Positions 10,789 through 34,196 of a stretch of 35,199 nt of DNA are shown piece by piece. The stretch is taken from contig JAJRTR010000067.1 in assembly GCA_024278215.1 (NCBI GenBank), positions 1-35,199 of the forward strand. Direction: 5' to 3'. Position numbers and translations under genes: made by a program. Every line of letters begins with the position of its first letter. Position 1 is the first letter of the stretch. Source of the DNA: a bacterium. Lineage in GTDB: Bacteria > UBP15 > UBA6099 > JAJRTR01. The notes beneath the pieces are model-generated. The model saw only the letters and a list, made by a program, of their open reading frames with translations. It was not told where the DNA came from and ran no database searches.

Positions 10789-12267
10789 GTGAAAAAGCTG
10801 ATACTGATAATCCTGTGCGTTATCGGGATGGGAACAGCGGCATACAGCAAGGAGATAGCAGGAGTAGTCAGGTGGGGCGCGCCCGAGCCGGGAGAAACTG
10901 AGGGGATCGGCTCGCTCAGCGCCGTTGCCGGTATAGATGTGTCTGTGACCACGACCGATGGAACCGCCCTTGCGACAGCGGTAACCGATGAAAACGGAGA
11001 ATATGTTTTGCAATTCGATTCGGGAGAATCCGCAGCATATACGGATTTTATTCTTGAAGCGGCGACGACCGGCGCCAGGCTTCGCGCAGTTGCCGACGGC
11101 CCGCATGTCGATATCGATCCTGTTTCGGAAGTGATTGTGGAACAGGTTATCAAATCCGGTAGCCCGACAAATAGTTTTACCGCCGATGAAATACGGTTGA
11201 TAAATAAAGAGCTTGCCACCCTCGCGGCGAACGTTGATTTTCAGGGCGTAGAAACACCTTCCGCCGCGGTAGCGTTGTTGCTGAACGACAAGAATTTTAG
11301 CCTCTCTCTTGGTGATCTCATCAACACATACAGTACTGAAGGAGATACAGTCGTCGAAGTTAATGATCTGAAGTCTATGATCACAAAATTCATCGCCGCA
11401 TTCACCAATAACGATCCTTCCGGTGTTGCTGATTACATAACCAACGATGTGCAGATCATTGTTGGCGACAAAGTATATGACTATAACGGTATTCAGAAGT
11501 TTATCGAAGAAATAAACCGAAAATTCGAGATGAATAAATTTGATGTTGAATGTGCTCGTGTCAGGGTGGACGGTGACAGCGCCGAAGTGGAGACTTCGGA
11601 GAAACTTTTATTGACGTCACGCGCCGGCGGCGAAGTTACAAGCGATTCATGGAATATGATAAATACGGTCAGGAGGATTGGCGGCAAGTGGCGTCTTGTA
11701 GACAGAAAAAGGAAGAAATGTGTTGTAGCAAAGCGGAGTATTACGCCGGACGGCGATATATCCGACTGGGTGGGTATCAGACCGTGTCTGATACAAAAGC
11801 CTGTTGTGAAAGGTGGTTCCGGAGTCTGGGGACGTATTGAATCGCTGTATTTCGCAAGAGATGAAATGTATCTGTACTGGAGAATGGACCTTCCGCGGAC
11901 GGCTGCCGCGTCAAACGGCGAAAAGACGTCACGTGGATTGTATTCGTTAACCCTGAAGAACGACACCGGTGATGAAGGTTGCGACCATTTTATAAACATG
12001 ATAGTTTACGAGGGCGTTCAGGGCGCTTCTCTGGGAGAGTCCTGCATCCGAGGGGCGGATAATACCAAAAAGGAAGCCACGTATACATACGAGAAATACG
12101 GTGTCGGAAAACTCACGGTGGAAGGGCGCGTTCCTCTGGATGACATCGGGTATCTGCCCAACGGAGTTATAGCTTTTGGAGCTTACAAGGGAAAAACACA
12201 TACCGGAGAGAAAGAAAAGCCAACGGTGTACACAGACGATACACAGATATTCTTTACCCCCGAATAG
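10789..12267 (+). CDS. Secreted multidomain protein, copy 2 (carboxypeptidase-regulatory-like, NTF2-like, CBM9-like)
   Basis: This 492-aa exported protein starts at GTG 10789 with GAAGGTG upstream. It has a Sec signal peptide (about residues 1-21), then IAGVVRWG opening a carboxypeptidase-regulatory-like beta-sandwich (to about 105) with NGEYVLQF. A linker follows with YSTEGDTV, shared almost exactly with copy 1. Next is an NTF2-like region (about 190-315) ending GGKWRLVDRKRKKC. The C-terminal domain has DGDISDWVGIRPC and SLYFARDEMYLYWRMDL, a pattern typical of CBM9-like surface-binding modules. No enzyme motif is seen. The stop is 6 nt before the radical SAM gene at 12274, so the two are almost certainly co-transcribed. 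This raises the possibility that the protein is made or modified together with that enzyme's product. Confidence 0.8.
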   Translation: MKKLILIILCVIGMGTAAYSKEIAGVVRWGAPEPGETEGIGSLSAVAGIDVSVTTTDGTALATAVTDENGEYVLQFDSGESAAYTDFILEAATTGARLRAVADGPHVDIDPVSEVIVEQVIKSGSPTNSFTADEIRLINKELATLAANVDFQGVETPSAAVALLLNDKNFSLSLGDLINTYSTEGDTVVEVNDLKSMITKFIAAFTNNDPSGVADYITNDVQIIVGDKVYDYNGIQKFIEEINRKFEMNKFDVECARVRVDGDSAEVETSEKLLLTSRAGGEVTSDSWNMINTVRRIGGKWRLVDRKRKKCVVAKRSITPDGDISDWVGIRPCLIQKPVVKGGSGVWGRIESLYFARDEMYLYWRMDLPRTAAASNGEKTSRGLYSLTLKNDTGDEGCDHFINMIVYEGVQGASLGESCIRGADNTKKEATYTYEKYGVGKLTVEGRVPLDDIGYLPNGVIAFGAYKGKTHTGEKEKPTVYTDDTQIFFTPE

Positions 12268-12273
12268 CAACTG

Positions 12274-13629
12274 ATGACAGTTCCGGAAGAAAAAGAATCG
12301 CGAATATACCTTGTCAATCCCCCATCAAAACGGCTTGTTCTGCGTGATTACTATTGCTGTACATTCTCGAAAACAGGCTATCTCTGGCAACCGGTTGATC
12401 TGCTTGTGCAGAGTGGTATTCTTTCCGAACAATACAGTGTCGGGATTATTGACGCGGTAGCGGAAAAGACCGGTGTGGCAACGGTGATAAGGACAATCCG
12501 CGACGCGAAACCTGAAGCGGTATATTCGCTCATCGGATCGAAAACGATTGAAACCGACCTGCAATTTCTGAAAACACTTAAGAGCAATACCGGCGCAACA
12601 ATTATTGTGTCCGGCGATGTCGTGCTCCATAAACCAGCAGTGTTTATTGAAAAACATGACTGTATTGATGCTGTGCTTCTTGATTTTACAACCAGAGATA
12701 TTGTCTACTATTTGCATTCCGTGTTCGACGAGATATCAGGTATGGTTTTTCGGACGGAAGATGGAATAATTTCAAAGATAAAATCATCTCGGCATGAATT
12801 CAAATATCCGTTTCCCTTGCATTCAGCTTTTCCTTCAGAAAAGTATAGTTTCCCGTTTGCGCAGCACGGTTATTCTGCGGTGCTCGCTTCGTTCGGCTGT
12901 CCCTTTTCCTGCGCGTTCTGCAATAGTGGTGTAAAGTCAATCGGGTTCAGTTTCCGAGACTTCGATAATCTGACCGATGAAATATCAGGATTGTACGAAA
13001 AAGGAGTCAGGCATATATTTTTCAAGGATATGACTTTCGGAACGAGTCGTTCCCGCCGCGAGAAGTTGTGCAGTTTTCTCAGCGCGGAAACACGGGGCCT
13101 GACATGGAACACTTATGCGAGAGTCGACCTGCTCGATGAAGAGACAATTAAGATGTATTCGGAGGCGGGCTGCCGGCTACTGCAAATGGGGATAGAGACA
13201 GCGGATGCGGACATGGCCGCGGGAGTCGGAAAGAAATTCGATATGGATCACGTCAGAAAAACATTCGCGTCGCTGAAAAGGAATAACATAGCGATCGGAG
13301 CGCACTATATCGTGGGGCTGCCGGGCGAAGTCGTGGCTGGGGCGATGAAAACACTAAGGCTGGCGCGGCGTCTCGATTCCGATTACGCATCATTTAATCT
13401 ATACTCGCCAAGACCGGGATCATCGCTCTATGATGTGGAGAAGACCCGGAAACGAAAACGGTTTGTATGGAAACAGGTATTCAGATTGATTTACATTATG
13501 TTTTATTTGCGGCCCGGATATATATTCGCTTCTCTGCGAAAAGGAAAGGCCGGGGGGGACGAAAGGAACATAAATATCCGCTCGATGATGAATATAATAA
13601 GTTATATTTTGTATCTGCCTGATGAATGA
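12274..13629 (+). CDS. Cobalamin-type (B12-binding-like) radical SAM protein
   Basis: This 451-aa protein has the layout of class B radical SAM enzymes. An N-terminal Rossmann-like region (about 10-170) opens with YLVNPPS, typical of the cobalamin-binding-like domain, but no DxHxxG cobalamin motif is seen. A TIM-barrel radical SAM domain follows with the cluster motif C209-x3-C213-x2-C216 (GCPFSCAFC). After it come the usual MGIETAD and HYIVGLPGE strands. The C-terminal region (about 385-451) is basic and partly hydrophobic. It follows the secreted protein at 10789-12267 by 6 nt. The family includes methyltransferases and lipid-modifying enzymes, so the substrate cannot be named. It is convergent with the minus-strand operon ending at 13692, with no obvious terminator hairpin in the 62-bp gap. 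Confidence 0.85.
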   Translation: MTVPEEKESRIYLVNPPSKRLVLRDYYCCTFSKTGYLWQPVDLLVQSGILSEQYSVGIIDAVAEKTGVATVIRTIRDAKPEAVYSLIGSKTIETDLQFLKTLKSNTGATIIVSGDVVLHKPAVFIEKHDCIDAVLLDFTTRDIVYYLHSVFDEISGMVFRTEDGIISKIKSSRHEFKYPFPLHSAFPSEKYSFPFAQHGYSAVLASFGCPFSCAFCNSGVKSIGFSFRDFDNLTDEISGLYEKGVRHIFFKDMTFGTSRSRREKLCSFLSAETRGLTWNTYARVDLLDEETIKMYSEAGCRLLQMGIETADADMAAGVGKKFDMDHVRKTFASLKRNNIAIGAHYIVGLPGEVVAGAMKTLRLARRLDSDYASFNLYSPRPGSSLYDVEKTRKRKRFVWKQVFRLIYIMFYLRPGYIFASLRKGKAGGDERNINIRSMMNIISYILYLPDE

Positions 13630-13691: not shown

Positions 13692-14939
13692 TCAGATATT
13701 CGCAAGTATATCATTGGTAAACCTGATTTGTGGTTCCACAGATTTGAAACCTTCAAGTACCTTGGCGGCCTCAGTATATAGAGACCTGACTGCTGATCCC
13801 GTATAGCGGTCGAGATTGCCCGCGCTGGGATAGGGAAGAGACAGGACGATTCCTTCGAAGTCTCTGTTTCCGCTGTATTTGTCGACAATTGACTGGATTG
13901 TGTCGCCGAGCGTGCCGATGCTTTCCGGGGTGAGTTTGATATTGACTCTTGATTTGTTTTCATCTTCGAGCAGGTTTTCGAGTCCCTGCAATGTTTGCGA
14001 CAGGCTGTTATCAGTACGTGTATGTGCATCGTGTATTTTCGGGTCCGAGGAAAAAAGTGACACTTCAAATATCAGACTGTCACTTTTGAGTTCGTTATGC
14101 CTTTTTCTGAATGAGGGATTACAGAATATCCGACCATTGGTGTTCACCTGCACGCGAATATCGGGTCTTATCGCCATCACCATTTTCATGACCTTGAGAT
14201 AGCTCTTGTGAAGAGTAGGTTCGCCGCCCTTGATGACCAGTGTTTTCAGTGCTTTTTGTCTTACCTTGCAATATATATATTTTGATAAAGGCATGAAATT
14301 GTGTTTTGAAACTCTTTCATCGAAGTCATAACCTTTCAGATCTGCCGGGATGTGGCATCCGACGCAGTTGTTGTTGCAGTTGCCGTTGATGAATAGATAT
14401 TCGGTAACGAACTTGACTTCCTTGTTGTAGTTTTCTCTTATTTCGGGCTTTTGTGCTTCCTGCCGCACTATTGCCGACAATATGTTGAGAGACCTGAAGT
14501 CAAGTGTGTGGAAGTTGTATTTGAAATAGTTCCTGATGTAATGATAGAGGTGAAAACGCATGTTGAGAAAAGTATCGTAACCGTCGGGGATGTAGGCCAT
14601 AAAAAAGGAAAGGTCTATCCAGTTGTCAATATTCGACGGGCTGTTATCGAGGAGTTCCCAGATCAATTTTATGCCTTTGTCAAACTCCTTTTCCACATAA
14701 TGACAATAGGCTTTGATCGCGACGTAAATGTCGGACCTGAAGTCGGACTTGTAAGACTCGATGAAATCTTTCAAGCGGCGATACTCTTCCGGTTCTCTAT
14801 ACGAGAGCAGTGATATGTGTGTGAAAAAGCTCATATCGTTAACGATATTGAACGAATAGTCGTTCAGATTGCGGTGGTAGGGCATGTCGAAGTTTTTGTT
14901 CAGAACTTCGTTCAGGATGTCGTCATAAGAGTTAATCAT
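13692..14939 (-). CDS. Radical SAM protein with N-terminal helical domain
   Basis: This is a radical SAM enzyme of about 415 aa. The first half (residues 1-170) is helical and resembles TPR-type repeats (YCHYVEKEFDKGIKLIWELLDNSP). The radical SAM domain begins with C188-x3-C192-x2-C195 (CNNNCVGC), followed by VIKGGEPTLH and a TNGR strand. The C-terminal part has no Cys cluster, so no SPASM-type auxiliary site is visible. ATG 14939 was chosen over an in-frame TTG at 14945. It overlaps the stop of the DUF483-like gene by 8 nt, which implies translational coupling. It is the last gene of the His-Xaa-Ser precursor operon. By position it is a candidate additional peptide-modifying enzyme, with the helical domain possibly used for substrate binding (inference). 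Confidence 0.85.
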   Translation of the reverse strand: MINSYDDILNEVLNKNFDMPYHRNLNDYSFNIVNDMSFFTHISLLSYREPEEYRRLKDFIESYKSDFRSDIYVAIKAYCHYVEKEFDKGIKLIWELLDNSPSNIDNWIDLSFFMAYIPDGYDTFLNMRFHLYHYIRNYFKYNFHTLDFRSLNILSAIVRQEAQKPEIRENYNKEVKFVTEYLFINGNCNNNCVGCHIPADLKGYDFDERVSKHNFMPLSKYIYCKVRQKALKTLVIKGGEPTLHKSYLKVMKMVMAIRPDIRVQVNTNGRIFCNPSFRKRHNELKSDSLIFEVSLFSSDPKIHDAHTRTDNSLSQTLQGLENLLEDENKSRVNIKLTPESIGTLGDTIQSIVDKYSGNRDFEGIVLSLPYPSAGNLDRYTGSAVRSLYTEAAKVLEGFKSVEPQIRFTNDILANI

Positions 14940-15909
14940 CGGCAAAGGATATAAAAAACCATGGCTCCGTTTCAGTTTTTAGAATCATTTTTATCATTCG
15001 GTCGCCGGCATGCACGAAAATTCTGTCGTCGAGTATTTCAAGAGTATCGCCCTGCCTGAAGATGTCTTCGAGTATGCCGGGATAGAGATATTTGTCGACA
15101 AAACCACCGTTGTTGTATTTAAGTATGTTGCCCTCGGGCCTGCCGTCGAATGCGTAAATATCTCTTTCTCTGAAAACAAGGAAATTGAGTTTCAAGTGCC
15201 TGTCGATGATCTCGACATAAGTGGGATCATATTGTTGAATGAACGCTCTGAGTTTTGCGGAAAGTTCGGCGGTCGCCGTGCAATCGAAACTGCATGGGAT
15301 GTGGTATAAGTAGCAAAATGAATCTTTGACAAGCGAGTTGCAAAGGTAATTCGGTTTGGTTTTAGTATTTTCGAAAGGTTTCATCAGCGTGTTGCGATAT
15401 GCGTTGTGGTTGTTGAATTTCGCGAAGAAGTCGATGCAGCATTTCGGGTATCCGAGGTGTTCGCCGAACCAGTAATAGTCGATAATCGGTTTTGTGACTA
15501 TCCTGTTATTGACGCAGACAGGATACCAGCCGGTTCGTTTTATACGGTCGAGCGTTTCTCCGGATTTAGAAACGTAGAGATGAACCCGTCCGTAATAGCC
15601 TGCATCTACCGGTGCGCCCTGTGCGATAGTTGTAGTGAGCATTTCGCTGCCGATGGCGGACCTGACATCGTATGACCAGCCTTCGTCGTAAAAAACCGAT
15701 TCCGTTTCGACAACGAGAGAATACTTCTCGCAGGCGCTGATGAATTCGTCCAGCTTGTCCACATATATCCAGTCGTCGAGCGCGGGTTTAAGGTCCGCAA
15801 GCAGCGCATAGTAGAGGAATATCTGTCCGTGGCTGCCTCTTGCCCGGTAAATCTCGTTGAGATAGGTCGGGGAATAATCACCAAAATAAATGTCGCTGTC
15901 ATTAGGCAT
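14932..15909 (-). CDS. DUF483-like protein (325 aa)
   Basis: This protein is of unknown function. The central segment LGYPKCCIDFF (about 165-175), followed about 45 residues later by HIPCSFDC, matches my recollection of the DUF483 family. These paired cysteines suggest a metal or Fe-S site. The N terminus (1-150) is mixed alpha/beta with no recognised motif, and there is no signal peptide or membrane helix. ATG 15909 has GGGA upstream. It lies between radical SAM genes, 66 nt after one and overlapping the next by 8 nt, so it very probably works with them. Candidate roles are a partner, chaperone or accessory redox protein for the peptide-modifying enzymes. That role is inferred from context only. 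Confidence 0.75.
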   Translation of the reverse strand: MPNDSDIYFGDYSPTYLNEIYRARGSHGQIFLYYALLADLKPALDDWIYVDKLDEFISACEKYSLVVETESVFYDEGWSYDVRSAIGSEMLTTTIAQGAPVDAGYYGRVHLYVSKSGETLDRIKRTGWYPVCVNNRIVTKPIIDYYWFGEHLGYPKCCIDFFAKFNNHNAYRNTLMKPFENTKTKPNYLCNSLVKDSFCYLYHIPCSFDCTATAELSAKLRAFIQQYDPTYVEIIDRHLKLNFLVFRERDIYAFDGRPEGNILKYNNGGFVDKYLYPGILEDIFRQGDTLEILDDRIFVHAGDRMIKMILKTETEPWFFISFADD

Positions 15910-15975
15910 AAGTATATATTGTCCCGGTCGGATTATCGTTGAAACCTGTGATTTTCACAATACGCATGTCCGACT

Positions 15976-16884
15976 CTATTTTTTTGTCACGGGTTCAAAT
16001 TCGCTCCATCCGTAAGTCCTCGGATATTGCAGCCATGGCCCCTCGCAGATGTTGTAGTATAAACATTTCTTGCATTTTGGGGCTTTTTCCTTTTCAAAAT
16101 TTTTTCTGATGTATTCGAAATCGTTAACGACATTGGTAACGTCGTTAAGCTTGACGTGCGGGATATAGTTTTCCGACACATGCTTTTCATATCCCTGCAT
16201 GAAGCAGAACGGTACGGCTTCCACAAAGACCTGCACACCTGCTTTTCTTCCTATGTCGATGCCCTTTTTTATATAAGGTACGCAAAGCGATTTTTTCGGG
16301 AGCACGGAAAGTATGTTTTTGTCTGCGCTGCCGAGCACATGCACGAAAGCGTACTGAAACACATCGACTCCAAGCCGCACGAGAAGAGTGGCGAGGTCGG
16401 GGAATGTCCTGAAATTTGTTTTTGTAACGACAGTGTTTATCGAAACCGACTGTTTTCTCTTTGTGAGGTTGTATATTCCTTTTACTGTCTGTCTGTAGCT
16501 GTTGGCGCCGGTCAGGTAATTGTGGCAATATTCGTTAGCGGAGAGCAGTGCCGCGGTAACGGTTTGTATGCGGCCTTTACCAGCGGCGAGGAATTCGTCG
16601 CAGAACTTGCTGTAAGCGAATCGCCGGGCATTGGTCTGGATAAGTATGTTGTATCCGAGTCCGGCAGCATATTCGAGAATTTCCATGCAGTCGTTTCTGA
16701 CAGTGAATTCACCACCGGTCAGCACGACTTCCTGGTAGTCGTCTTTTTCCGCATAGAGGACATCCTTTATCTGCTGCGTTGTGCGGTCGGGAATAAAAAA
16801 TCTTTTGTCGCCGATAACACAATGTTTGCAGTAGTTGTTGCATCTATAACCAACTTTCAGGTCAAGTCTGTTCGGCATTGCCAT
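15976..16884 (-). CDS. Radical SAM protein with C-terminal auxiliary Cys cluster (302 aa)
   Basis: The radical SAM cluster motif lies near the N terminus, C15-x3-C19-x2-C22 (CNNYCKHC). It is followed by VVLTGGEFTVR (the GGE SAM-binding strand) and an IQTNARR strand. The C terminus has FCFMQGYE and then C271, C274 and C280 (CKKCLYYNIC), suggesting a SPASM/twitch-like auxiliary Fe-S cluster as in peptide-modifying enzymes. ATG 16884 has GGAG about 10 nt upstream. It resembles the preceding gene product in layout, including the shared phrase with P-x-C-x-M-x-G-[YF]-E, so the two look like diverged duplicates. It lies 43 nt after that gene within the precursor operon. A role in modifying the His-Xaa-Ser precursors is inferred. 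It might take the place of the classical HxsC, which I could not assign. Confidence 0.88.
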   Translation of the reverse strand: MAMPNRLDLKVGYRCNNYCKHCVIGDKRFFIPDRTTQQIKDVLYAEKDDYQEVVLTGGEFTVRNDCMEILEYAAGLGYNILIQTNARRFAYSKFCDEFLAAGKGRIQTVTAALLSANEYCHNYLTGANSYRQTVKGIYNLTKRKQSVSINTVVTKTNFRTFPDLATLLVRLGVDVFQYAFVHVLGSADKNILSVLPKKSLCVPYIKKGIDIGRKAGVQVFVEAVPFCFMQGYEKHVSENYIPHVKLNDVTNVVNDFEYIRKNFEKEKAPKCKKCLYYNICEGPWLQYPRTYGWSEFEPVTKK

Positions 16885-16927
16885 AAAATCACATCTCCGA
16901 CATTCCTATAAGGGCGGCGTTTCTATG

Positions 16928-17878
16928 TTACGATGCGCCTGCTAAGATTTTTTCTGAAACTTCTTCTTTCGTTGTGTAAAACACAGGATACAATTCTCTG
17001 GATGTGTAGTGTTCGTCCATGGAATACAAACCTGCACATATTTCGTTCAGGTAGCACACTTTGCAGCAATCGGTTTTCCCGTAAAACCTGTCACCGTCTC
17101 TTTTGTCTACTTCACCTTTTTCGTCCAGGAAAAGTATCCTGCATTTGTCGTTTTTAACGATCCTTCTGGTCTCGGTCGATAAGTGCTCGAAACCGCTCAT
17201 GTAACACAGGGGAACGCGTTCGACGCGGCAGGACATTCCCCATTCTTCGATCAAATTTACCGATCTGTCGAGTTGTATGTCGAAATCATTCAGCATGGGG
17301 ATTGTATCGGTGTTCTGCGAGGCGCGGTTCATCAGCGGGTCGAGGTTATTGAAGGTTATATGTTTTACAAAAGAGAATTTCTTTTTTATGTGGCCGACGA
17401 TACGGCTCAGGTGGTCGGAATTGTACTTGTTGATCGTTATCGCTATATCGAGCTTGATGCCGCCGATTTTTTTTATATTGCGCGCGGCCTGCTCGAAATT
17501 CTTGAGCGAATCCTGATTGCCGGTGAGAAAGCTCTGGACACCGGCATCGTCGGAGTAGACGGACATTGTTACAAGTTTCAGGCCGGAATCCTTAAGTTTT
17601 TTCAGATAGGCCATGTCTGCCAGTTTCTGGCCGTTTGTGATAATGCGACAGCCGAATTTCCTTGAAGCGCAATATTCGATATATTCCGGCAGATCATCGG
17701 ACAGGGTCGGTTCGCCGCCTGTGAGCAGAACGCCGAGGTAATCGCCGTCGGCAATTGTCGAGTCGATAAACTTTTTGCCCTGGGACAATGTTATGGAATT
17801 CTGATTCTCCGGATTTGAACAGAATCTGCATTGCTGGTTACATAAACGTGTGATCTGAAGATATGAAAAACTTGCCAT
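16928..17878 (-). CDS. Radical SAM protein with C-terminal auxiliary Cys cluster (316 aa)
   Basis: This is a radical SAM enzyme with CNQQCRFC near its N terminus and VLLTGGEPTLSDD as the GGE strand. It has an IITNG strand, then PLCYMSGFE and a C-terminal group DCCKVCYLNEIC that suggests a SPASM/twitch auxiliary cluster. The frame is open to a TTG at 17893. ATG 17878 was chosen because AGG-type ribosome binding is as good there and the product then starts just before the conserved barrel strand. It is the first gene after the three His-Xaa-Ser repeat precursors (136-nt gap with a CGGGTT/AACCCG hairpin). With the neighbour at 15976 it is the best candidate for a second maturase. HxsC-like identity is possible but not demonstrable here. 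Confidence 0.88.
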   Translation of the reverse strand: MASFSYLQITRLCNQQCRFCSNPENQNSITLSQGKKFIDSTIADGDYLGVLLTGGEPTLSDDLPEYIEYCASRKFGCRIITNGQKLADMAYLKKLKDSGLKLVTMSVYSDDAGVQSFLTGNQDSLKNFEQAARNIKKIGGIKLDIAITINKYNSDHLSRIVGHIKKKFSFVKHITFNNLDPLMNRASQNTDTIPMLNDFDIQLDRSVNLIEEWGMSCRVERVPLCYMSGFEHLSTETRRIVKNDKCRILFLDEKGEVDKRDGDRFYGKTDCCKVCYLNEICAGLYSMDEHYTSRELYPVFYTTKEEVSEKILAGAS

Positions 17879-17913
17879 AATATTATTTTTCAACCTGATA
17901 TATCTGATCTTAT

Positions 17914-17926
17914 CGGGTTGAACCCG
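17914..17926 (-). promoter_or_regulatory. Hairpin between the last precursor and the next radical SAM gene
   Basis: A perfect inverted repeat with 6-bp arms CGGGTT/AACCCG and a 1-nt centre lies between the precursor stop (18015) and the radical SAM start (17878). On the minus strand no T-run follows, so it is not a standard terminator. It may be an RNA processing or attenuation point that lets precursors be made in excess of enzymes. With only one base between the arms it may equally be a DNA palindrome. Confidence 0.35.
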
Positions 17927-18014
17927 TTGTTATTTTTGAAACAGTAAATTATAGTTGCATTCTCCCTGTTTTCCATCGATGGAAATGATATTGCCGAACC
18001 AGGTGGAAAAGATG

Positions 18015-18839
18015 TTACCACGATGAATGCGAGCCGTGCGAACCGTGGCTGTTCGCGCTGCTGTGCGAGTTGGCGGCAGCAATGCTGGCGTGAGTATTCG
18101 CAGAGCCGGTGTTGGCGTGTGTGCTAAGGTTCGTGTGCCTGTTTATTGCGTTAGTGCTGGCGTGTGTCGCATAGTTCCTGTGATTATTTATAGCATTGGC
18201 ATTGCCGTGAGTATTGACATTGGTGCTGGCATGGGTGGCGCTTACATTGTTGTGAACACTTGTGCCCGCCGTGTTGACGTGATTGCCGGTAGTCGCGCTT
18301 CCGTGTGCTGTCCATGCGGAGTGTTTGCCTTGCGAGGCGCTGTTGTGCATATTGCCTTTTGTGACCCCGCCGCTCGAGTGTACGGCGGCCGCATTGATCG
18401 CCGGTTTGCTGGAGTGCTTATTTATAGCAGATGTGGCGATATTTTTATTGTAGCTGTTATGGGCGTTTACGGCTGCGGTGCTTGTGTGCGCGCCTGAGCT
18501 TGAGTGCACACTGTTTGCGACCTGGCTGGCGTGCGTGTTTGCGTTGGAATGCTGGGCAATAGCGGCGACACTCGTGTGCCCCGACTGGGCGGCCCTGTTT
18601 GTGTGGGCATTATAACTGACGTGCATACTTTCGTGTGCCGACCTTGCGACCTGCGGGTCGATAAGAATTCCCAGCGCGACGAAAACCATGGCACCGGTCA
18701 CAACATTTTTCGATGTGATCTTCGCCTCTTCTTTTGTGAAATAGCACAGTGCATCTTCAACTATTCCCGGCAGTTTCCTTTTTGGGGACTGTAATCCCGC
18801 CGTGCCGGTCTGCGCTGTTCCTTTCATTCTCTTTTTCAT
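18015..18839 (-). CDS. hxsA: His-Xaa-Ser repeat precursor protein, copy 3 (HxsA-like, 274 aa)
   Basis: This is the third of three tandem HxsA-like precursors. The leader (about residues 1-60) has a basic start, then KLPGIVEDALCYFTKEEAK and a hydrophobic stretch ending ILIDPQ. The rest is almost entirely His-x-[Ser/Thr/Asn] units spaced 6 or 9 residues apart, rich in Ser, Asn and Ala. The repeats break at a central motif TKGNMHNSASQGKH followed by SAWTAH (160-179). They end at HGSHGSHSSW. The ATG at 18839 was preferred to GTG 18848 because AGGTGG sits 8 nt before it and it matches the other copies. By analogy with the predicted Hxs system, the repeats would be modified by radical SAM enzymes and the leader recognised by them. 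The product and its activity are unknown. Confidence 0.85.
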   Translation of the reverse strand: MKKRMKGTAQTGTAGLQSPKRKLPGIVEDALCYFTKEEAKITSKNVVTGAMVFVALGILIDPQVARSAHESMHVSYNAHTNRAAQSGHTSVAAIAQHSNANTHASQVANSVHSSSGAHTSTAAVNAHNSYNKNIATSAINKHSSKPAINAAAVHSSGGVTKGNMHNSASQGKHSAWTAHGSATTGNHVNTAGTSVHNNVSATHASTNVNTHGNANAINNHRNYATHASTNAINRHTNLSTHANTGSANTHASIAAANSHSSANSHGSHGSHSSW

Positions 18840-18866
18840 CTCGCCCACCTTTTAATAAATTTACCT

Positions 18867-18987
18867 GCCGGGACTGTCCTGACCCGGCAAAGCCGGAATC
18901 CAACAGGCCGCATTTTCGTGCCCAAACAAATGCGGTTTGAGCACGGCACACAGAGTTTCATCGTTTCCAAGGTCTACCTCGGAAACG
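18867..18987 (-). promoter_or_regulatory. Highly structured leader upstream of precursor copy 3
   Basis: The 255-nt gap before ATG 18839 contains stacked, partly exclusive hairpins. GCCGGG (18867-18872) can pair with CCCGGC (18883-18888), or CCGGC (18884-18888) with GCCGG (18892-18896). CCGCATTT (18908-18915) can pair with AAATGCGG (18928-18935), or CGTGCCCAAAC (18917-18927) with GTTTGAGCACG (18935-18945, one mismatch). CGTTTCC (18962-18968) pairs with GGAAACG (18981-18987) around AGGT/ACCT. Alternative pairings are typical of attenuators or cis-regulatory RNAs. I recognise no known riboswitch class. Confidence 0.45.
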
Positions 18988-19094
18988 CCTGTAACTGGCA
19001 GCTCCAGCTTTCACCGATCTCTTTTCAGCATTTCTTTACCATCCTGCGTAGAATTTCAGTCGTAAGATACTATACGTCAATTATTATCAATATG

Positions 19095-19928
19095 TTACCA
19101 TGAAGCGTGAGAAGCATGTGAGAAATGCTTGTTAGAACTTACATGATTGTTGATCGCTGTGATATTCGAGTGTGTGTTAACGGCGGCTCTGTTCCCATGT
19201 GAATTGGAGTTGGCATGGGAGTTTATGGCGCCGGTATTGGAATGTCTGTTCACACTGGCATGGTCTGCGGCGGCGACGGTGCTCGCATGGGCGGAAGATG
19301 AAGCGTGATCGGATACGGCGGGGATACTGGTATGTGTGTTTGTACCCGCGGCATTCACATGTGATGTGAGGCTCGAATTGTCGTGAGCAGTCCACGCGGT
19401 GTGTTTGCCCTGCGAGGCGCTGTTGTGCATGTTGCCTTTTGTCAGGCTGTTGTTCGAGTGAACAGCCGCGGCGCTTGTGTGTCCCGAACTGGAGTGTACG
19501 GACCTTACCGGATAGCTTGTAGCGTTGTTGAGGCTTGAATGGTTGTTCAGGGCGGCGGAACTGGTGTGGTCGCTGGCACTGACGTGAGAGTTGATCGCGT
19601 TCGAACTGCGGTGGCTGGTGTCACTAAGATGTTTGTTCACGGCTATCACGCTCGAATGAGTGCTTCTTGCTGCCTGGCTTCCGTGGCTGACGATGTTGGA
19701 ATGGATGTTTGTATGCCAGCCTGCGGCCGGGTCGCTCGCCAGTCCGATGTCCACCACCGCAAGCGTTCCTGTAAGGATGCTCTTCGAGCTGATTTTGGCT
19801 TCTTCATTCTTGAAGTAACCAAGCACATCTTCTTTGATGGAGGGAAGCAATTTACCAGCGCCGGGCTTGAGTTTGCTGTCAGGCGAAATGTTGCCATCCC
19901 TGCCTGTCTTTTTCCTTTTATCCGCCAT
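19095..19928 (-). CDS. hxsA: His-Xaa-Ser repeat precursor protein, copy 2 (HxsA-like, 277 aa)
   Basis: This is the middle HxsA-like precursor. The leader has KLLPSIKEDVLGYFKNEEAK, then ISSKSILTGTLAVVDIGLASDPA, a hydrophobic segment that could span or insert in a membrane or serve as an export signal. The repeat region from about residue 75 has His-x-Ser/Asn units at 9- and 6-residue steps, for example HGS-x6-HSS-x6-HLS-x3-HRS-x6-HVS-x3-HTS. The central motif TKGNMHNSASQGKH followed by TAWTAH starts at residue 163. The C terminus is HFSHASHASW. ATG 19928 has a strong GGAGG site. The leader, the central motif and the tail are what the three copies share best, and the repeats themselves drift. 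Known HxsA proteins are paired with HxsB/C/D, and an HxsB-like gene lies upstream here. Confidence 0.88.
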   Translation of the reverse strand: MADKRKKTGRDGNISPDSKLKPGAGKLLPSIKEDVLGYFKNEEAKISSKSILTGTLAVVDIGLASDPAAGWHTNIHSNIVSHGSQAARSTHSSVIAVNKHLSDTSHRSSNAINSHVSASDHTSSAALNNHSSLNNATSYPVRSVHSSSGHTSAAAVHSNNSLTKGNMHNSASQGKHTAWTAHDNSSLTSHVNAAGTNTHTSIPAVSDHASSSAHASTVAAADHASVNRHSNTGAINSHANSNSHGNRAAVNTHSNITAINNHVSSNKHFSHASHASW

Positions 19929-19973
19929 TTCTATCGCCTCCGGACATCAACTTGTGTTTTGCGTTCTTTAATG

Positions 19974-19987
19974 GAGCCAATTGGCTC
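19974..19987. promoter_or_regulatory. Perfect 14-bp palindrome upstream of precursor copy 2
   Basis: GAGCCAA (19974-19980) meets its exact complement TTGGCTC (19981-19987) with no spacer, 46 bp before ATG 19928. A spacerless palindrome is more like a protein operator than an RNA hairpin. It may therefore mark a separate control point for this precursor. No regulator gene is seen nearby. Confidence 0.35.
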
Positions 19988-20071
19988 AATGATCCGTTCA
20001 ATTCAGGTTACACATCTTGCTTTGTTGCTTTTAAATCTTTGTTGTTTTAAAATCACTGTATTCCCTTATCA

Positions 20072-20893
20072 TTACCATGAAGCGTGCGAGCTGTGTGAAG
20101 AATGCGCATTGGAATTCGAATGAGCGTTCACAGCAGTGATGCTCGAGTGGGCACTGACACCGGTTCCGCTTGTATGACTGTTAAGGCTGTAGTGGTTATT
20201 GATCGCATTCCTGCTGGCATGTCTGCTCGAATTCGAGTGTGCCGCCGCGGCTGAAGCGTTCGAGTGTGTGCTGTAGTTTGTGTGTGCATTTGTAGGCGAC
20301 ATGCTTGTGTGCCTGCTGGATGCGGCCCTGCTGGCATGTGTTGTGGGGGCTGTGTTGCTGTGGTCCGTCCAGGCGGAGTGCGTGCCCTGTGAGGCGCTGT
20401 TGTGCATGTTGCCTTTTGTGAGTGCGCTGTTGGAGTGTGTGTCGACAACGGTGTTTGTGGCTGCCGTACTTGCATGGCTGTTGGAGTTCATGTTCGAATG
20501 ATTGTTGATGCTGTTATGTACATTCACACTGCCTTTGCTGGAATGATCGCTGACAACATTGCTGTGTCTGGACGATGCTGCCATGCTGCCGTGCGAACTT
20601 ATGTTTGTGTGCCTGTTGACGGCGGAAACATTGGAGTGCGAACTGGACCCCGCCTGGTTGATATGCTGAACAACACTGGAATGAGCGCTGGTGTGAATAG
20701 ACGACGCGGGGTCGGAGAGCAGACCGATGGCGGCAATCGCCAGTGTGCCGGTGAGAATGTTTTTGGGCGATATCTTTGCTTCTTCATTGGTGAAATATTC
20801 GAGCACGTCATCCTTCACCGAGGGCAGTATCGTTTTGACACCCTGTTTGACTGAAGCGCTACCGTATACTTCGTTGCGTTTTTTTTCGCTCAT
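20072..20893 (-). CDS. hxsA: His-Xaa-Ser repeat precursor protein, copy 1 (HxsA-like, 273 aa)
   Basis: This is the first precursor after the HxsB-like gene (97-nt gap). The leader has TILPSVKDDVLEYFTNEEAK, then ISPKNILTGTLAIAAIGLLSDPA, nearly the same as copy 2. The repeats follow with His-x-Ser/Asn/Thr units 6 or 9 residues apart, for example HAS-x6-HYS-x3-HTS-x6-HSS-x6-HSN near the C terminus. The central motif TKGNMHNSASQGTH followed by SAWTDH starts at residue 159, and the tail is HSSHSSHASW. ATG 20893 has AAAGGTG upstream. Composition is extreme: mostly Ser, His, Asn, Ala and Thr. Cysteine is lacking, so thioether chemistry like that of sactipeptides is unlikely. Modification at His, Ser or Asn would fit better (inference). 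Confidence 0.88.
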   Translation of the reverse strand: MSEKKRNEVYGSASVKQGVKTILPSVKDDVLEYFTNEEAKISPKNILTGTLAIAAIGLLSDPASSIHTSAHSSVVQHINQAGSSSHSNVSAVNRHTNISSHGSMAASSRHSNVVSDHSSKGSVNVHNSINNHSNMNSNSHASTAATNTVVDTHSNSALTKGNMHNSASQGTHSAWTDHSNTAPTTHASRAASSRHTSMSPTNAHTNYSTHSNASAAAAHSNSSRHASRNAINNHYSLNSHTSGTGVSAHSSITAVNAHSNSNAHSSHSSHASW

Positions 20894-20990
20894 GACACAC
20901 CTTTTTTTACTTTTCCCTTTGCTGCATCAAAGGTCTTTTAAGTTAACAACATAACGGTCGTGTTGTCTTGCCGACATCAGTTATCCGTGC

Positions 20991-22535
20991 TTAATTGCTT
21001 TTCTCGCATTCGCATTCTTTTTCTTCCGGAACATTGTCTCGTTCACTCCCGTTATCCGGGATCACTGCATTGTCGTCCTGCACTCTTTTGCCGACATAGT
21101 CTTCGATCCACTTAAGGAATACGGCACTGTTTTCCGGGATGAGGAGTCGCTCGAACAGGATATCCATAATACCTTCGTTTATTTTGTGCCTTCTTGTAGT
21201 GAAAACATTTGGGGACAACTCACCGCTCTCGTGATAATTCTGCACGGGACATATACCGCAATAAGGTTTATAGACGCACATCGAGCAACCGGGTGTCGAT
21301 TCTATAGTCGAAGCAAGGCATACGGCTTTAGTCGCCTTGTGCATGATCAGGTCGGTGTATGTGGACTCGCCGCAAGTGCCTATCTTGAATGTATCGTCGC
21401 CAAGGTGCCCGAGCATTCGGGCTTCGTCACATGTATACACGTCTCCGTTGTAGTTGTATGCAAGCTGTCCGAGTGCCGCGCCGCACGGAGACTTTAAATC
21501 CACATAACCAGGTTCGTGGCCTGCGATAGCCTTGCTGAGTATGTATATCGCAAATGTCTCCGTGAAGTATGTGCCGCCGTGGTTGATCTCCAGCACATAA
21601 TCAATTATCTCTGCATAAAATTCGAGAAATTCATCTGTGGTTATTCCTATTTTCTCCCAGTTTTTCTGAGCTACGCCCAGCGTGGTGGGGGGCCGCACGA
21701 ATATGGAATTCGACCCAAGCGAACGATATTCGTCTACAATCTCCCTTGCATAAGGCAGTGAATGTTTTGTAACGGTTCCTATCAGCGCCGGGAGTCTCTC
21801 GAGTCCTTCGTTCACATAGCGGTCAAACACTTTTCTGTAGTTTTTAACTACAAGCGCATGATTATCGCCGCGGTTTTTGTTGTGTACGTAGTCCGGTCCG
21901 TCGAGCGACATGCACATCACAACTTCGTTCTCGACAAGGAAATCAAGTTTCTCGTCATCTATCAGGGTGTGGTTTGATACTATGTTGAAACTTATCGACC
22001 TGTTTTTTACTTTATTAACTTCTTTCGCGTATTTGATTATGTGTTTGACAACTTCCCAGTTGAGCAGCGGTTCGCCGCCCTGGAACTCTATGCTGAGAAC
22101 TTCCGAAGGCGCCTGGAAGATCGTGTCCACCACCTTCTCGGCGGTTTCTATCGACATGTCTGTGCCGTGTGTGCTGCCCGGCACAGAATTCGCCTGGCAG
22201 TAAAGACATTTCAGATTGCATCTCAGCGTGGCGATTATGATATGCAGATTGGTAATGTGGGCGGGGTCCCTGAATCGTTTCAGCGCCTTATCCACCACAC
22301 CCGCTCTTGTTTCCTTCGTGAAGATCATATTGTGTTTCTGGAAATCTTCCATCAGCCGGCGATTACCGTAGGGGAGCCCGTTTTCGACAAGGTCTTTGAA
22401 ATCCGGCTCTTCGAGAAATAAGTAATTGCCGTATTCATTAACTATCAGAACATAGCCGCCTATTTTCCTGAAGCTGAAAGGCACCATTTTCTCAAAGTGC
22501 TTTTGTTTAACTTTTTTAATTGCGATGCCGTTCAT
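20991..22535 (-). CDS. hxsB: HxsB-like radical SAM/SPASM peptide maturase (514 aa)
   Basis: The N terminus (about 1-70, with FSFRKIGGYVLIVNEYGNYLFL) resembles the PqqD/RRE-like start typical of HxsB proteins. The radical SAM domain has C106-x3-C110-x2-C113 (CNLKCLYC), then IEFQGGEPLLNW. The SPASM region includes CGAALGQ, YTCDEARML, CSMCVYKPYC and CPVQNYHESG, expected to hold auxiliary Fe-S clusters. The Cys-rich acidic tail (ECECEKSN) is unusual. HxsB enzymes are predicted to modify His-Xaa-Ser repeat proteins, and three such proteins follow immediately downstream. Its ATG overlaps the stop of the 67-aa gene by one base (TAATG), so they are translationally coupled. I am confident it is a radical SAM/SPASM maturase and fairly confident it is HxsB-like. 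Confidence 0.85.
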   Translation of the reverse strand: MNGIAIKKVKQKHFEKMVPFSFRKIGGYVLIVNEYGNYLFLEEPDFKDLVENGLPYGNRRLMEDFQKHNMIFTKETRAGVVDKALKRFRDPAHITNLHIIIATLRCNLKCLYCQANSVPGSTHGTDMSIETAEKVVDTIFQAPSEVLSIEFQGGEPLLNWEVVKHIIKYAKEVNKVKNRSISFNIVSNHTLIDDEKLDFLVENEVVMCMSLDGPDYVHNKNRGDNHALVVKNYRKVFDRYVNEGLERLPALIGTVTKHSLPYAREIVDEYRSLGSNSIFVRPPTTLGVAQKNWEKIGITTDEFLEFYAEIIDYVLEINHGGTYFTETFAIYILSKAIAGHEPGYVDLKSPCGAALGQLAYNYNGDVYTCDEARMLGHLGDDTFKIGTCGESTYTDLIMHKATKAVCLASTIESTPGCSMCVYKPYCGICPVQNYHESGELSPNVFTTRRHKINEGIMDILFERLLIPENSAVFLKWIEDYVGKRVQDDNAVIPDNGSERDNVPEEKECECEKSN

Positions 22536-22738
22536 TACTTTCCGCCCATCTTGTATATCACGTAATTGCAGAATTCATCTATGAAATTTTCATGATCGGA
22601 ATAATCAATATTTTCGACGCTTACGTCAATTTTTCGCCCGGTGTCCGAAATAGTGAAATCAGCGAAACCGCCGTAATCTTTTACTGCTTCTTTTACAGCG
22701 CTCAATTTGTAAATCCTTTTGTCAAAATCAACTTTCAA
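22535..22738 (-). CDS. HxsD-like mini-protein (67 aa)
   Basis: This small acidic protein starts at TTG 22738, with GGAG 6 nt upstream, and overlaps the end of the 190-aa HxsD-like gene by 11 nt. It reads DFDKRIYKLSAVKEAV, then a beta-strand pair (FADFTISDTGRKIDVSVEN), then FIDEFCNYVIYKM. That order (Y-x-L start, strands, then an EFxNYxL-like helix) mirrors the HxsD fold at less than half the length of its neighbour. It is probably a second HxsD-type partner for the HxsB enzyme. The similarity is by pattern only, so it could also be an unrelated peptide-binding protein. Confidence 0.65.
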   Translation of the reverse strand: MKVDFDKRIYKLSAVKEAVKDYGGFADFTISDTGRKIDVSVENIDYSDHENFIDEFCNYVIYKMGGK

Positions 22739-23300
22739 CGACTTCTCCGTTCAATGTCGGTATCACCAGCCCCTTTTTCGCCTGATCCTCGATTTGTTGC
22801 CGGGGGTCAAGTATATTGTCGGGCTGTCCGTATTTTTCTTCCCAGGGCGTCGCGATGCCGAGCGGATCGTCTTCGTAGTCGAACGATTCTTCCTCTTCCT
22901 CGATATCGGCAAGAAGTTTTTCCATTTTGTCGTTGAGTTTGAATACCTCCGCCCTGCTCTCCGTGTCCAGTTCCGTCTGCAAGTTGTCCGAAGCTAGGGA
23001 TATGCGTTCCGGGTTGAACACGATGTGAAATATCTGGTCCCTGACTCTTGATGTGCCTTTTAATATCTTCAATTTCACCGAGTAGTCCAACGCTTCATCC
23101 CGGAACTCACTTTCCAGATTGTCTATGGTTTCTCCGTCTTTTGGTTTAAGCTGCACAATAATTTTTCTGGCGTCGCTTTCGTCGTAATCAACACGCACAT
23201 AGCATTTCGCCAGGAATTTGTGGCATGCGCCCAATATGGCTTCCGCTGGAAACAACTTCGTGCTGAAGTGCATTTCCACACCGTTACCGCCGTTCTTCAT
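22728..23300 (-). CDS. hxsD: HxsD-like protein with extended C terminus (190 aa)
   Basis: This is the first gene of the operon. The N-terminal ~110 residues match what I recall of HxsD: FSTKLFPAEAILGACHKFLAKCYVRVDYD, strands with IIVQLKPK, then EFRDEALDYSVKLKILKGTSRVRDQIFHIVF. The last part corresponds to the family's LLNDYxLRE-type motif. The remaining ~80 residues are an acidic, probably disordered extension (DIEEEEESFDYEDDP), which HxsD proteins usually lack. ATG 23300 has GGGAGGG upstream, and the predicted promoter is about 130 bp upstream. HxsD is a non-enzymatic partner of HxsB/HxsC, possibly aiding substrate recognition. Family assignment is by motif, without a search. Confidence 0.72.
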   Translation of the reverse strand: MKNGGNGVEMHFSTKLFPAEAILGACHKFLAKCYVRVDYDESDARKIIVQLKPKDGETIDNLESEFRDEALDYSVKLKILKGTSRVRDQIFHIVFNPERISLASDNLQTELDTESRAEVFKLNDKMEKLLADIEEEEESFDYEDDPLGIATPWEEKYGQPDNILDPRQQIEDQAKKGLVIPTLNGEVVES

Positions 23301-23460: not shown

Positions 23461-23589
23461 TCTTTCACTGAAGCTTATCGGTTATTCATGCTTTCCATGT
23501 GAAAACAAGCCGCATATTTATTCGAAATCACATTATTGTTATAGTATATCATGTATTGCAGAATATCAGATAGCGGGAAAAGTTCTGAA

Positions 23590-24888
23590 ATGAAGAAAAC
23601 TCATATCGTCTGCCTGCTTGGGCTGTCGAAACTTGACATTTATCATAAGGATACCTATTGCTACGGACTCGATAGAATCGCGGCGCATTCGCTCAAAAAA
23701 GGCCTGAATGCAAGAATACACAAATTAAACAGATATGTGGCAGGAGACATAACAGATGATTTGAAGCAGGTGGTTGAAATATATCCCGACGTACTGGCCT
23801 TATCGGCGTATTTGTGGAATGTGGAAAGAGTCGATTACCTTATATCCAGGACCAGGGAACTGCTCACGGAAACGCTGGTGGTGGTCGGCGGTCCGAGCGC
23901 GGGAAGGTACAGGCAGTTTGCTCCGGAATCGAAAAGCCCCCACTACGTAATTATCGGCGAGGGCGAAAAAGTATTCTTCGATCTTGTTGATTCATACCTG
24001 AACGGCAGGAAAAGATGTTATATCGCGCCGATATTAGAAAAAGAGGAGCTTGTATCATGCCGGGAACCTGTGATTATTGAAGATGCGCCGCCTGTCGCGA
24101 ATCTGGACGAACTGGGGTCGCCGTATACGATGAACCTTGGAATGCCGCCCGGTGACCGCCTGTATATCGAGACAAGCAGGGGATGTCCCCACAGGTGCTC
24201 TTTCTGCATTATGGGAATGTGCCGGGCGCCCCTTAGATTTTTCAGTATGGATTTTCTCAGGGAAGAATTACTCTGGGCAAAAAGCAACGGGAAAACCGAT
24301 GTCGATATTTGCGATGCGGCAATCAATTATAATTCGGAACATGCGGCGGGCTTTTTCAGAACGGCGGAAAGTATTGATCCTGAAGGTCAACTGAGTTTCA
24401 CTTTCGCAGTTCATGCGGATTATATAACGCCGGATCAGATCAGTGAGATGTCGCGTGTGAATGTTTTGCAGGCATCGGTAGGACTGAATTCATTAACACC
24501 CGGGACATTCAAGACAGTTGGGCGCAGAGTGGACAGAGTAAAGTTTGCAAGAAAAATCGATATGCTGAATACGGTCACAAGGCCCTCTGTTTCAGTTATA
24601 ATGGGGCTTCCGGGCGATACTGTGGAAGGATTTCGTGAGACGCTGGAATTCTGTGCGGAGTTGGATGCCGATATAAATATTTTTGAGCTCAAGGTTTTTC
24701 ACGATACCGGCTACTACAGGGATATCGAGAGATATAAGATTGTGTTTGATGAGGGCAACAGCATGAATGTTGTGTCGACGTTCAGCTACACGGAATCCGA
24801 TCTTGAAGAGATGCGGGCGGCGGCGGCGGAGTACGCCAGGAGGTTCGACAGGTTCAGTGCAGGCGATGTCGAACAAGTATGGAAATGA
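23590..24888 (+). CDS. Cobalamin-type (B12-binding-like) radical SAM protein
   Basis: This 432-aa class B radical SAM enzyme has an N-terminal cobalamin-binding-like Rossmann domain (about 1-150, VVVGGPSAGRY and IIGEGEKVFFDL). The radical SAM domain has C199-x3-C203-x2-C206 (CPHRCSFC) preceded by IETSRG. SVIMGLPGDT and a C-terminal helical part follow. The start was set at ATG 23590; the frame is open to 23551, but that extension adds nothing conserved. No DxHxxG motif is present, as in many members that still bind cobalamin. It is divergent from the His-Xaa-Ser operon, and a 289-bp gap with promoters separates them. It may belong to the same functional island, but nothing links it directly. 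Confidence 0.85.
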   Translation: MKKTHIVCLLGLSKLDIYHKDTYCYGLDRIAAHSLKKGLNARIHKLNRYVAGDITDDLKQVVEIYPDVLALSAYLWNVERVDYLISRTRELLTETLVVVGGPSAGRYRQFAPESKSPHYVIIGEGEKVFFDLVDSYLNGRKRCYIAPILEKEELVSCREPVIIEDAPPVANLDELGSPYTMNLGMPPGDRLYIETSRGCPHRCSFCIMGMCRAPLRFFSMDFLREELLWAKSNGKTDVDICDAAINYNSEHAAGFFRTAESIDPEGQLSFTFAVHADYITPDQISEMSRVNVLQASVGLNSLTPGTFKTVGRRVDRVKFARKIDMLNTVTRPSVSVIMGLPGDTVEGFRETLEFCAELDADINIFELKVFHDTGYYRDIERYKIVFDEGNSMNVVSTFSYTESDLEEMRAAAAEYARRFDRFSAGDVEQVWK

Positions 24889-27584: not shown

Positions 27585-27729
27585 AGGTCTGTTTTTATCC
27601 GAATTCCTGCATTTGTGTTTCGACAAGCCTGTAAAGCGGTTTGCCGTTGCCGCACTGCCAACCACAGTGGTGAAATATGCTGATAATATATCGAATCCAT
27701 ATCATATTACAGGTCGAGTCTTTGTCGTT

Positions 27730-33572: not shown

Positions 33573-34196
33573 TCAACCGTCCTGTTCGGCCCGCGGAGGC
33601 AGACCAAGTATTTCCGGCTTTACTTTTTTTATGAAGCTGATTGCGCCGACCGCTATCAGCCCTTCGACAATCATAATAGGCAAATGGGCCACGACGATAA
33701 GTCGCGCTGTCTGGACAAACGATTCCTCGGTGAAGACTAGTTCAGCCGCCACCAGCAACCCGCTGAGCATCACAGGCAACGCGCCGCACAGAAACGCGCC
33801 CGTCACCGAGACCGCATTGTTTCCGCTGAAAATCATCCTGCTGAACAAGAACCGGCACATCACCGCCGGAAATGCCATGTTGAACGTGTTCACTCCCAGC
33901 ACGGTGATACCGCCGAACTGGAATAAAACAGCCTGCATGAACAGCGCGACAAGCATTGACGGAAAAGCCGCCCAACCGAGCAGAAGCCCGTTTAATCCGT
34001 TGAGAATAAGGTGCGCGCTCGACGGGCCGATAGGCACATGAATGAAAGAAGCGACAAAAAACGCCGACGACAGCAACGCCACTTTCGGTATGTCTTCCTG
34101 CTTCGTTTTCTTGAGTCCTATCGCTACGCCCACTACGGCCAGCGCCGCGCCGCCGATCAGTATCGGTGGCGAAAGGACTCCTTCCGAGATGTGCAT
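33573..34196 (-). CDS. cbiM: CbiM/NikM substrate-binding membrane component of ECF transporter
   Basis: This 207-aa membrane protein binds Ni2+ or Co2+ in ECF-type uptake systems. It begins MHISEGVLSPP, whose second-residue His is the hallmark metal ligand. HVPIGPSSAHLILNGLNGLLLGW and FGGITVLGVNTFNMAFPA follow, all conserved in the family, with about six membrane helices. It ends just before the nikL-like start (1-nt gap). A direct repeat similar to Geobacter-type NikR operators lies about 50 bp upstream, so nickel is favoured over cobalt. No B12 riboswitch sequence is apparent upstream, which fits. The family usually needs CbiQ and CbiO; neither is encoded on either side within this window. 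Confidence 0.92.
   Translation of the reverse strand: MHISEGVLSPPILIGGAALAVVGVAIGLKKTKQEDIPKVALLSSAFFVASFIHVPIGPSSAHLILNGLNGLLLGWAAFPSMLVALFMQAVLFQFGGITVLGVNTFNMAFPAVMCRFLFSRMIFSGNNAVSVTGAFLCGALPVMLSGLLVAAELVFTEESFVQTARLIVVAHLPIMIVEGLIAVGAISFIKKVKPEILGLPPRAEQDG

Follow-up and report, generated by a model that had tools for sequence, protein, structure and literature searches.

A 35,199-nucleotide stretch of DNA from an uncultured bacterium of the phylum UBP15 (contig JAJRTR010000067.1; hereafter the window) carries, at positions 13692–23300, ten minus-strand genes which, on their profile matches and gene content, constitute an enlarged and conserved variant of the His-Xaa-Ser (Hxs) system. 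The canonical Hxs system (HxsA/B/C/D; TIGR03976–TIGR03979) was reportedly described by Haft and Basu. The operon studied here encodes three long repeat precursors (A1–A3), HxsB and three further radical S-adenosylmethionine (SAM) enzymes (C1–C3), two HxsD-type proteins, and a DUF483-like protein, and no enlarged form with three substrates and a DUF483 partner was described in the literature we searched. A first-pass annotation, made from the letters of the window, had proposed such an enlargement from ten genes separated by overlaps or short gaps. All ten open reading frames were found, with intergenic distances of -14 to 246 bases and overlaps between D1 and D2, D2 and HxsB, and DUF483 and C3, and the proposal is upheld by matches to HxsB and HxsD models and by the co-occurrence of the extra enzymes and DUF483 with HxsA or HxsB elsewhere. 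In order of transcription the genes are as follows.

22728–23300, minus strand: D1, HxsD-like protein of 190 residues with a C-terminal extension of ~90 residues; TIGR03976 E 3.7e-9, 36.8 bits (cut-off 50); orthologues first among the Hxs genes in related genomes G003, G005 and G006
22535–22738, minus strand: D2, small HxsD-related protein of 67 residues; NF038315 66.5 bits (cut-off 41)
20991–22535, minus strand: HxsB, radical SAM/SPASM maturase of 514 residues; TIGR03978 470.8 bits (cut-off 370); CxxxCxxC plus conserved Cys
20072–20893, minus strand: A1, His-x-Ser/Asn repeat precursor of 273 residues; 27 core H-x-[S/N] motifs (shuffled mean 10.9, maximum 19)
19095–19928, minus strand: A2, His-x-Ser/Asn repeat precursor of 277 residues; 27 core motifs (shuffled mean 9.6); closest to A2 of other genomes
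18015–18848, minus strand: A3, His-x-Ser/Asn repeat precursor of 277 residues; 26 core motifs (shuffled mean 8.4); A3 clade 100/100
16928–17893, minus strand: C1, HxsC-like radical SAM enzyme of 321 residues with a C-terminal Cys cluster; TIGR03977 E 3.6e-25; cross-phylum clade 100/100
15976–16884, minus strand: C2, HxsC-like radical SAM enzyme of 302 residues with a C-terminal Cys cluster; NF038332 (HxsC4) E 1.5e-28, HxsC E 1.5e-25; cross-phylum clade 100/98
14932–15909, minus strand: DUF483-like four-Cys protein of 325 residues with motifs YPxCC, N and PCxxxC; PF04467 E 3.6e-5
13692–14945, minus strand: C3, HxsC-like radical SAM enzyme of 417 residues with a TPR-like helical N-terminal domain, lacking a C-terminal Cys cluster; HxsC E 1.1e-23

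The precursors share a constrained H-x-[S/N] unit

The three repeat proteins noted at first pass stand out clearly from chance, since none of 2000 shuffles that left composition unchanged exceeded 19 core motifs. Each precursor opens with a leader whose last part is hydrophobic and resembles a signal peptide, and continues as a repeat of ~200 residues; A1–A3 thus have the leader and His-x-Ser repeats, encoded next to the enzymes, that are expected of Hxs precursors. The 27–28 His residues of each protein are spaced mainly 6 and 9 residues apart, with a final 3,3, which indicates a step of three residues and a visible unit of 6+9 = 15. In nine precursors from three genomes the leader contains LP..Y...EEAK, the hydrophobic stretch recurs, the middle holds an HN..xQGxH-type box, and the protein ends in H..H.SH.SW.

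Comparison of the window precursors with their G003 orthologues indicated that His is retained at 93–100% of positions and that Ser/Asn at His+2 is retained as Ser/Asn at 85–96%, against 41–51% for other Ser/Asn and 28–48% identity for the remaining residues. Because retention at His and His+2 is so far above that of other residues, we take H-x-[S/N] to be the constrained unit, within which Ser and Asn are interchangeable at His+2. A1 and A2 contain no Cys and A3 a single one, in its leader; we rejected thioether chemistry of the sactipeptide or ranthipeptide kind since the cores offer no donor Cys. An AlphaFold2 model of A1, built from an input alignment of only nine repetitive rows, contained only leader helices at 25–37 and 43–57, at low confidence (mean predicted local distance difference test score, pLDDT, 32), and we take the A1 core to be disordered.

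Two other accounts of these proteins bear on how the repeats are read. The His-rich proteins might bind or buffer metal at the cell surface with His as the ligand, and the radical SAM chemistry would then leave no crosslinks but a minor alteration, for instance oxidation of Ser/Asn, epimerisation or dehydrogenation. The number of His residues and the predicted disorder of the core would suit such a role, and Ser/Asn exchange at His+2 is as compatible with a polar ligand, or with a residue open to oxidation, as with a crosslink site; metal binding on its own, however, would call for no fixed residue at His+2 and no set of four to five radical SAM enzymes, and we regard this account as unlikely. 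Repeated cores behind a leader are typical of multi-core precursors of ribosomally synthesized and post-translationally modified peptides, so that A1–A3 could instead be cleaved into many small modified peptides yielding a bioactive or cofactor-like product, a notion to which the uncharacterised DUF483 protein lends some room. Yet the repeat register is conserved over the full length of the precursors, the mid box (HNSxxQGxH) and the C-terminus are fixed, HMM (hidden Markov model) scans of the operon proteins recognised no protease and no dedicated exporter, and a gene resembling a prepilin peptidase is confined to the genome's second Hxs locus. Cleavage into small peptides therefore strikes us as improbable.

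A search of the genome with the HxsA profile TIGR03979 gave no match, so A1–A3 are not HxsA by that model. They also lie below the curated cut-offs of HxsA3 (NF038309; best score 20.9, cut-off 65) and HxsA4 (NF038313; 16.2, cut-off 55), the weak HxsA3 scores coming from two window leaders. In Patescibacteria, Omnitrophota and Elusimicrobia the short HxsA proteins have an EEG-type leader, a hydrophobic stretch and then (HGS)n, with an HN...G-H box ahead of the (HGS)n tail in several of them. A leader with a hydrophobic stretch is common to Hxs precursors of many phyla, and several have an AxA-like site. We infer that A1–A3 are enlarged, degenerate versions of the short-HxsA layout.

HxsB, the HxsD-type proteins and the HxsC-like enzymes

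HxsB scores well above the cut-off of its model, which places the operon among Hxs systems, and retains CxxxCxxC together with further conserved Cys at 351, 369, 417, 420, 426 and 429. D2 likewise exceeds the cut-off of the HxsD_rel model (NF038315) and is an HxsD-type protein, and D1 is a sub-threshold match to HxsD. The claim of one HxsB-like and two HxsD-like proteins thus stands, with D1 below the cut-off of its own model.

C1, C2 and C3 are above the cut-off of the radical SAM Pfam model, and CxxxCxxC is present in all four enzymes of the operon. The top HMM match is HxsC for C1 and C3, and HxsC4 followed by HxsC for C2, all far under cut-off; on these scores the three enzymes are HxsC-like and not HxsC. 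Of the models TIGR03976–TIGR03979, that of HxsB is matched over cut-off, that of HxsD below it by D1, that of HxsC far below it by C1–C3, and that of HxsA not at all. Two enzymes with C-terminal Cys clusters had been predicted, and such Cys are invariant in C1 (276, 277, 280 and 286) and C2 (271, 274 and 280). C3 has no extra Cys in its C-terminal region. It is the enzyme predicted to have a helical N terminus, a domain that looks TPR-like as read from its sequence, with no model match.

In a maximum-likelihood tree of HxsC-like proteins, C1 falls in a clade of 9 rows (100/100) and C2 in one of 15 rows (100/98), both of them cross-phylum. Relatives of a further enzyme, C4, form their own cross-phylum clade (100/100), and the Bacillota/Spirochaetota HxsC proteins (100/100) are separate from the C1, C2 and C4 clades. 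The C3 clade is limited to the host order, and all of C1–C3 are outside the Bacillota HxsC clade. C4 is encoded beside C3 in other genomes (see below); its homologue in the window genome (35% identity) is on contig C38, among unrelated genes, and is probably a fifth enzyme of the system. Elsewhere in this genome, contigs C30, C6, C47, C10, C44 and C196 encode long HxsC-like proteins (600–857 residues) away from Hxs loci, and two radical SAM matches per frame on C30 and C6 suggest tandem enzymes.

A DUF483-like protein is linked to Hxs loci

The predicted DUF483-like protein has the motifs YPxCC and PCxxxC, both inside the region matched by PF04467, and its score is borderline (24.2 bits by hmmscan and 25.9 in the genome search; gathering score 25). 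Y154, P155, C157, C158, N191, C206 and C210 are invariant in 23 homologues. An AlphaFold2 model of good quality (pLDDT 81) gave nothing at E<=0.001 in a fold search of the PDB; the match of highest probability, 2guk (0.96), had an E value of 0.22 and was too weak to use, and a PDB sequence search returned only designed or unrelated proteins, which we set aside.

DUF483 was found in 19 of 50 Hxs genomes by the Pfam model and in 27 of 50 by a profile of the 23 homologues. In other phyla, seven DUF483 places were inside HxsB stretches against 0.33 expected (Poisson p ~7e-8), an enrichment that leans high because the profile was built partly from Hxs-linked members. A Nanoarchaeota Hxs cluster encodes an HxsC2-type radical SAM domain fused to DUF483 (L148:1941–3692). 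In an Omnitrophota cluster C1, C2, another gene and DUF483 come in that order, and right after them a stand-alone protein of 161 residues (L142:8422–8907) that matches the helical N-terminal domain of the window C3; this cluster is ~21 kb from its HxsB, the interval being bridged by a run of HxsC-like genes. The four invariant Cys, the gene position and the fusion point to DUF483 as a putative metal-binding or adaptor subunit.

The operon and its precursor trio are conserved within the phylum

Our sample of the phylum comprised seven genomes of one order. Gene order, a comparison to which the first-pass annotation had pointed, is D1-D2-B-A1-A2-A3-C1-C2-DUF483-C3-C4 in G003 and G005, and G006 has it too, divided between two contigs. 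The order is therefore conserved between two families, with C4 added after C3 in the other family. The A1-A2-A3 trio is present in five of the seven genomes, always as a trio where found; in the precursor tree A3 forms a clade (100/100), and A1 and A2 form separate groups of low bootstrap (41 and 45).

A second trio in G003, a genome with one HxsB over the cut-off, and the single trio in G004 have no Hxs enzymes in the stretches fetched (~27 and 20 kb). Both come immediately after the gene for a large, secreted repeat protein of tail-fibre-like type that ends in CCPCQ, the frame of the G004 gene being interrupted at an assembly gap. Relatives of this protein are upstream of short-HxsA loci in the window genome (L016) and in G002 (L023). 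The proteins of this kind, with CC-containing tails and directly ahead of HxsA-type genes, are at L170:7604–10765, L171:11544–14719, L023:5777–8560 and L016:3–2117. Tail-fibre-like repeat proteins are a multi-copy family in the window genome.

L016 is the second Hxs locus of that genome (G000:C205, 2190–7893). It encodes HxsD, D2, HxsB, a short HxsA4 with HGS repeats (68.8 bits, cut-off 55), C2-like, C1-like and third HxsC4-like enzymes, and, after these, a membrane protein resembling prepilin peptidases (Pfam A24 E 1.5e-4). Processing of A1–A3 by a prepilin-type peptidase was considered and rejected, such a gene being present only at this locus.

Multi-enzyme Hxs loci are common in uncultured phyla

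A scan of named genomes for HxsB yielded 80 loci. The nearest are from ADurb.Bin236, USMO_maxbin.112 and USCA_metabat.19, and more distant ones are from Schekmanbacteria, Azambacteria, Elusimicrobia, Omnitrophota, Parcubacteria, Woesearchaeota, Myxococcales, Bacillota and others. At least three HxsC-like genes are present in 45 of 86 Hxs-anchored stretches (some of which overlap), and the view that a locus with four radical SAM enzymes, beside a usual two, is exceptional has to be given up. Several radical SAM enzymes per locus are common in uncultured phyla, and such clusters are widespread in uncultured bacteria and DPANN archaea; what is unusual about the window operon is the trio of ~275-residue substrates together with the DUF483/C3 module.

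These comparisons also bear on whether C1–C3 and DUF483 might be a separate pathway, merely co-transcribed with a minimal Hxs system, as the occurrence of DUF483-like genes and HxsC-like enzymes away from Hxs loci could suggest. The C1, C2 and C4 clades and DUF483 nevertheless recur near HxsB in several phyla, and the Omnitrophota genome has the same C1-C2-(other)-DUF483-C3 domain order, which makes a separate pathway very improbable.

A proposed route to modified surface proteins

We consider it probable that the operon, taken as a whole, serves to modify its precursors at H-x-[S/N]. HxsB, with D1 and D2 aiding recognition, and C1–C3, with C4 in trans, would modify these sites in the cytoplasm, perhaps acting in turn as the first-pass annotation proposed. 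By analogy with three-residue cyclophanes, the most likely reaction would be formation of a radical C–C bond from the imidazole of His(i) to the beta carbon of Ser/Asn(i+2); C2(His)-Cbeta(i+2) bonds are known for HaaB, YhhB and ScaB, and a C4(Phe)-Cbeta(Ser) bond for MscB (PMC11002830). We hold this crosslink tentatively, with doubt outweighing confidence. DUF483 and the TPR-like domain of C3 may serve as metal-binding or adaptor subunits that keep C2 and C3 on the substrate. The modified precursors would then leave the cytoplasm, probably through Sec, and the exported trio may contribute to a structure on the cell surface, in many cases next to a large fibre-like protein that has repeats and is itself secreted; such a surface role is quite possible, if a little short of an even chance. 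In a bolder and rather unlikely version, the radical SAM enzymes would make no small natural product but would staple each ~275-residue repeat protein at ~27 sites; the three different proteins, as an obligate trio, would form a covalently hardened surface fibre, and DUF483 would be a hitherto undescribed accessory subunit of the radical enzymes.

Several points weigh against this proposal. HxsB scores higher with models of the thioether enzymes PapB (132 bits) and SCIFF (123 bits) than with those of the cyclophane formers YhhB (55 bits, cut-off 445) and GrrM/OscB (52 bits, cut-off 310), so that HMM scores assign it to no known cyclophane-forming family. Its best PDB match is the radical SAM protein 5wgg, which we take to be CteB. 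C1, C2 and C3 reach only 88, 90 and 84 bits with the HxsC equivalog TIGR03977 (cut-off 267.9), and DUF483-like genes away from Hxs loci must have other contexts. Export signals were judged by eye from hydropathy and cleavage sites, and we infer the reaction, the order of action and the product from the genes themselves.

Relation to known systems

The window operon resembles canonical Hxs in its HxsB over cut-off, its HxsD-type proteins, its leader with H-x-S repeats and its gene clustering. The Bacillota Hxs loci that we fetched have a single gene each for B, a C-type enzyme and A, and canonical Hxs has one short precursor where the window has three long ones; the window further differs in its three HxsC-like enzymes, which branch apart from HxsC of Bacillota, its DUF483 partner, and the frequent Asn beside Ser at His+2. 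Hxs3 and Hxs4 are approached by C2, whose best score is to HxsC4, and by the HxsA4 at L016, whereas the window precursors are 2–3 times longer and under both HxsA cut-offs, DUF483 is hit by no Hxs model, and C3 is under all cut-offs. With triceptides (XncB, OscB, MscB, HaaB and YhhB) the precursors share an aromatic-x-residue motif, in which His here occupies position i and Ser/Asn position i+2. They differ in having ~27 sites in a 275-residue protein and not a few in a short peptide, in an HxsB outside those enzyme families, and in a crosslink that is here a proposal. The window DUF483 protein is like PF04467 members in YPxCC and PCxxxC, and is distinguished by its borderline score and its link to Hxs.

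Hxs was named long ago, and our open-access literature search found no paper on its chemistry. Orthologue comparison within the operon exposes the constrained residues, His and the Ser/Asn two later, and with enzyme set and sites defined the modification becomes testable. For DUF483 the operon supplies a functional context, and the comparisons an enzyme to which it is fused.

Genes flanking the operon

One neighbour is a possible associated gene.

10789–12267, plus strand: predicted secreted protein of 492 residues with a SnoaL/DUF4440-like domain; Pfam DUF4440 E 5e-8

A homologue of this protein (27% identity, E 3e-42) is immediately upstream of D1 in G003, G005 and G006, although here the gene is on the opposite strand, and its membership of the operon is possible. 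Two radical SAM genes, both of B12-dependent type, flank the operon on the opposite strand at 12274–13629 (plus) and 23551–24888 (plus); the pair is HpnJ-like and KedN5-like, with a Pfam B12-binding domain only in the gene at 23551–24888. Further radical SAM genes are at 26097–27665 (minus) and 27730–28977 (minus); of these two, one encodes a B12-binding domain and the other an HMPTM-type zinc ribbon. A CbiM cobalt uptake gene is at 33573–34196 (minus).

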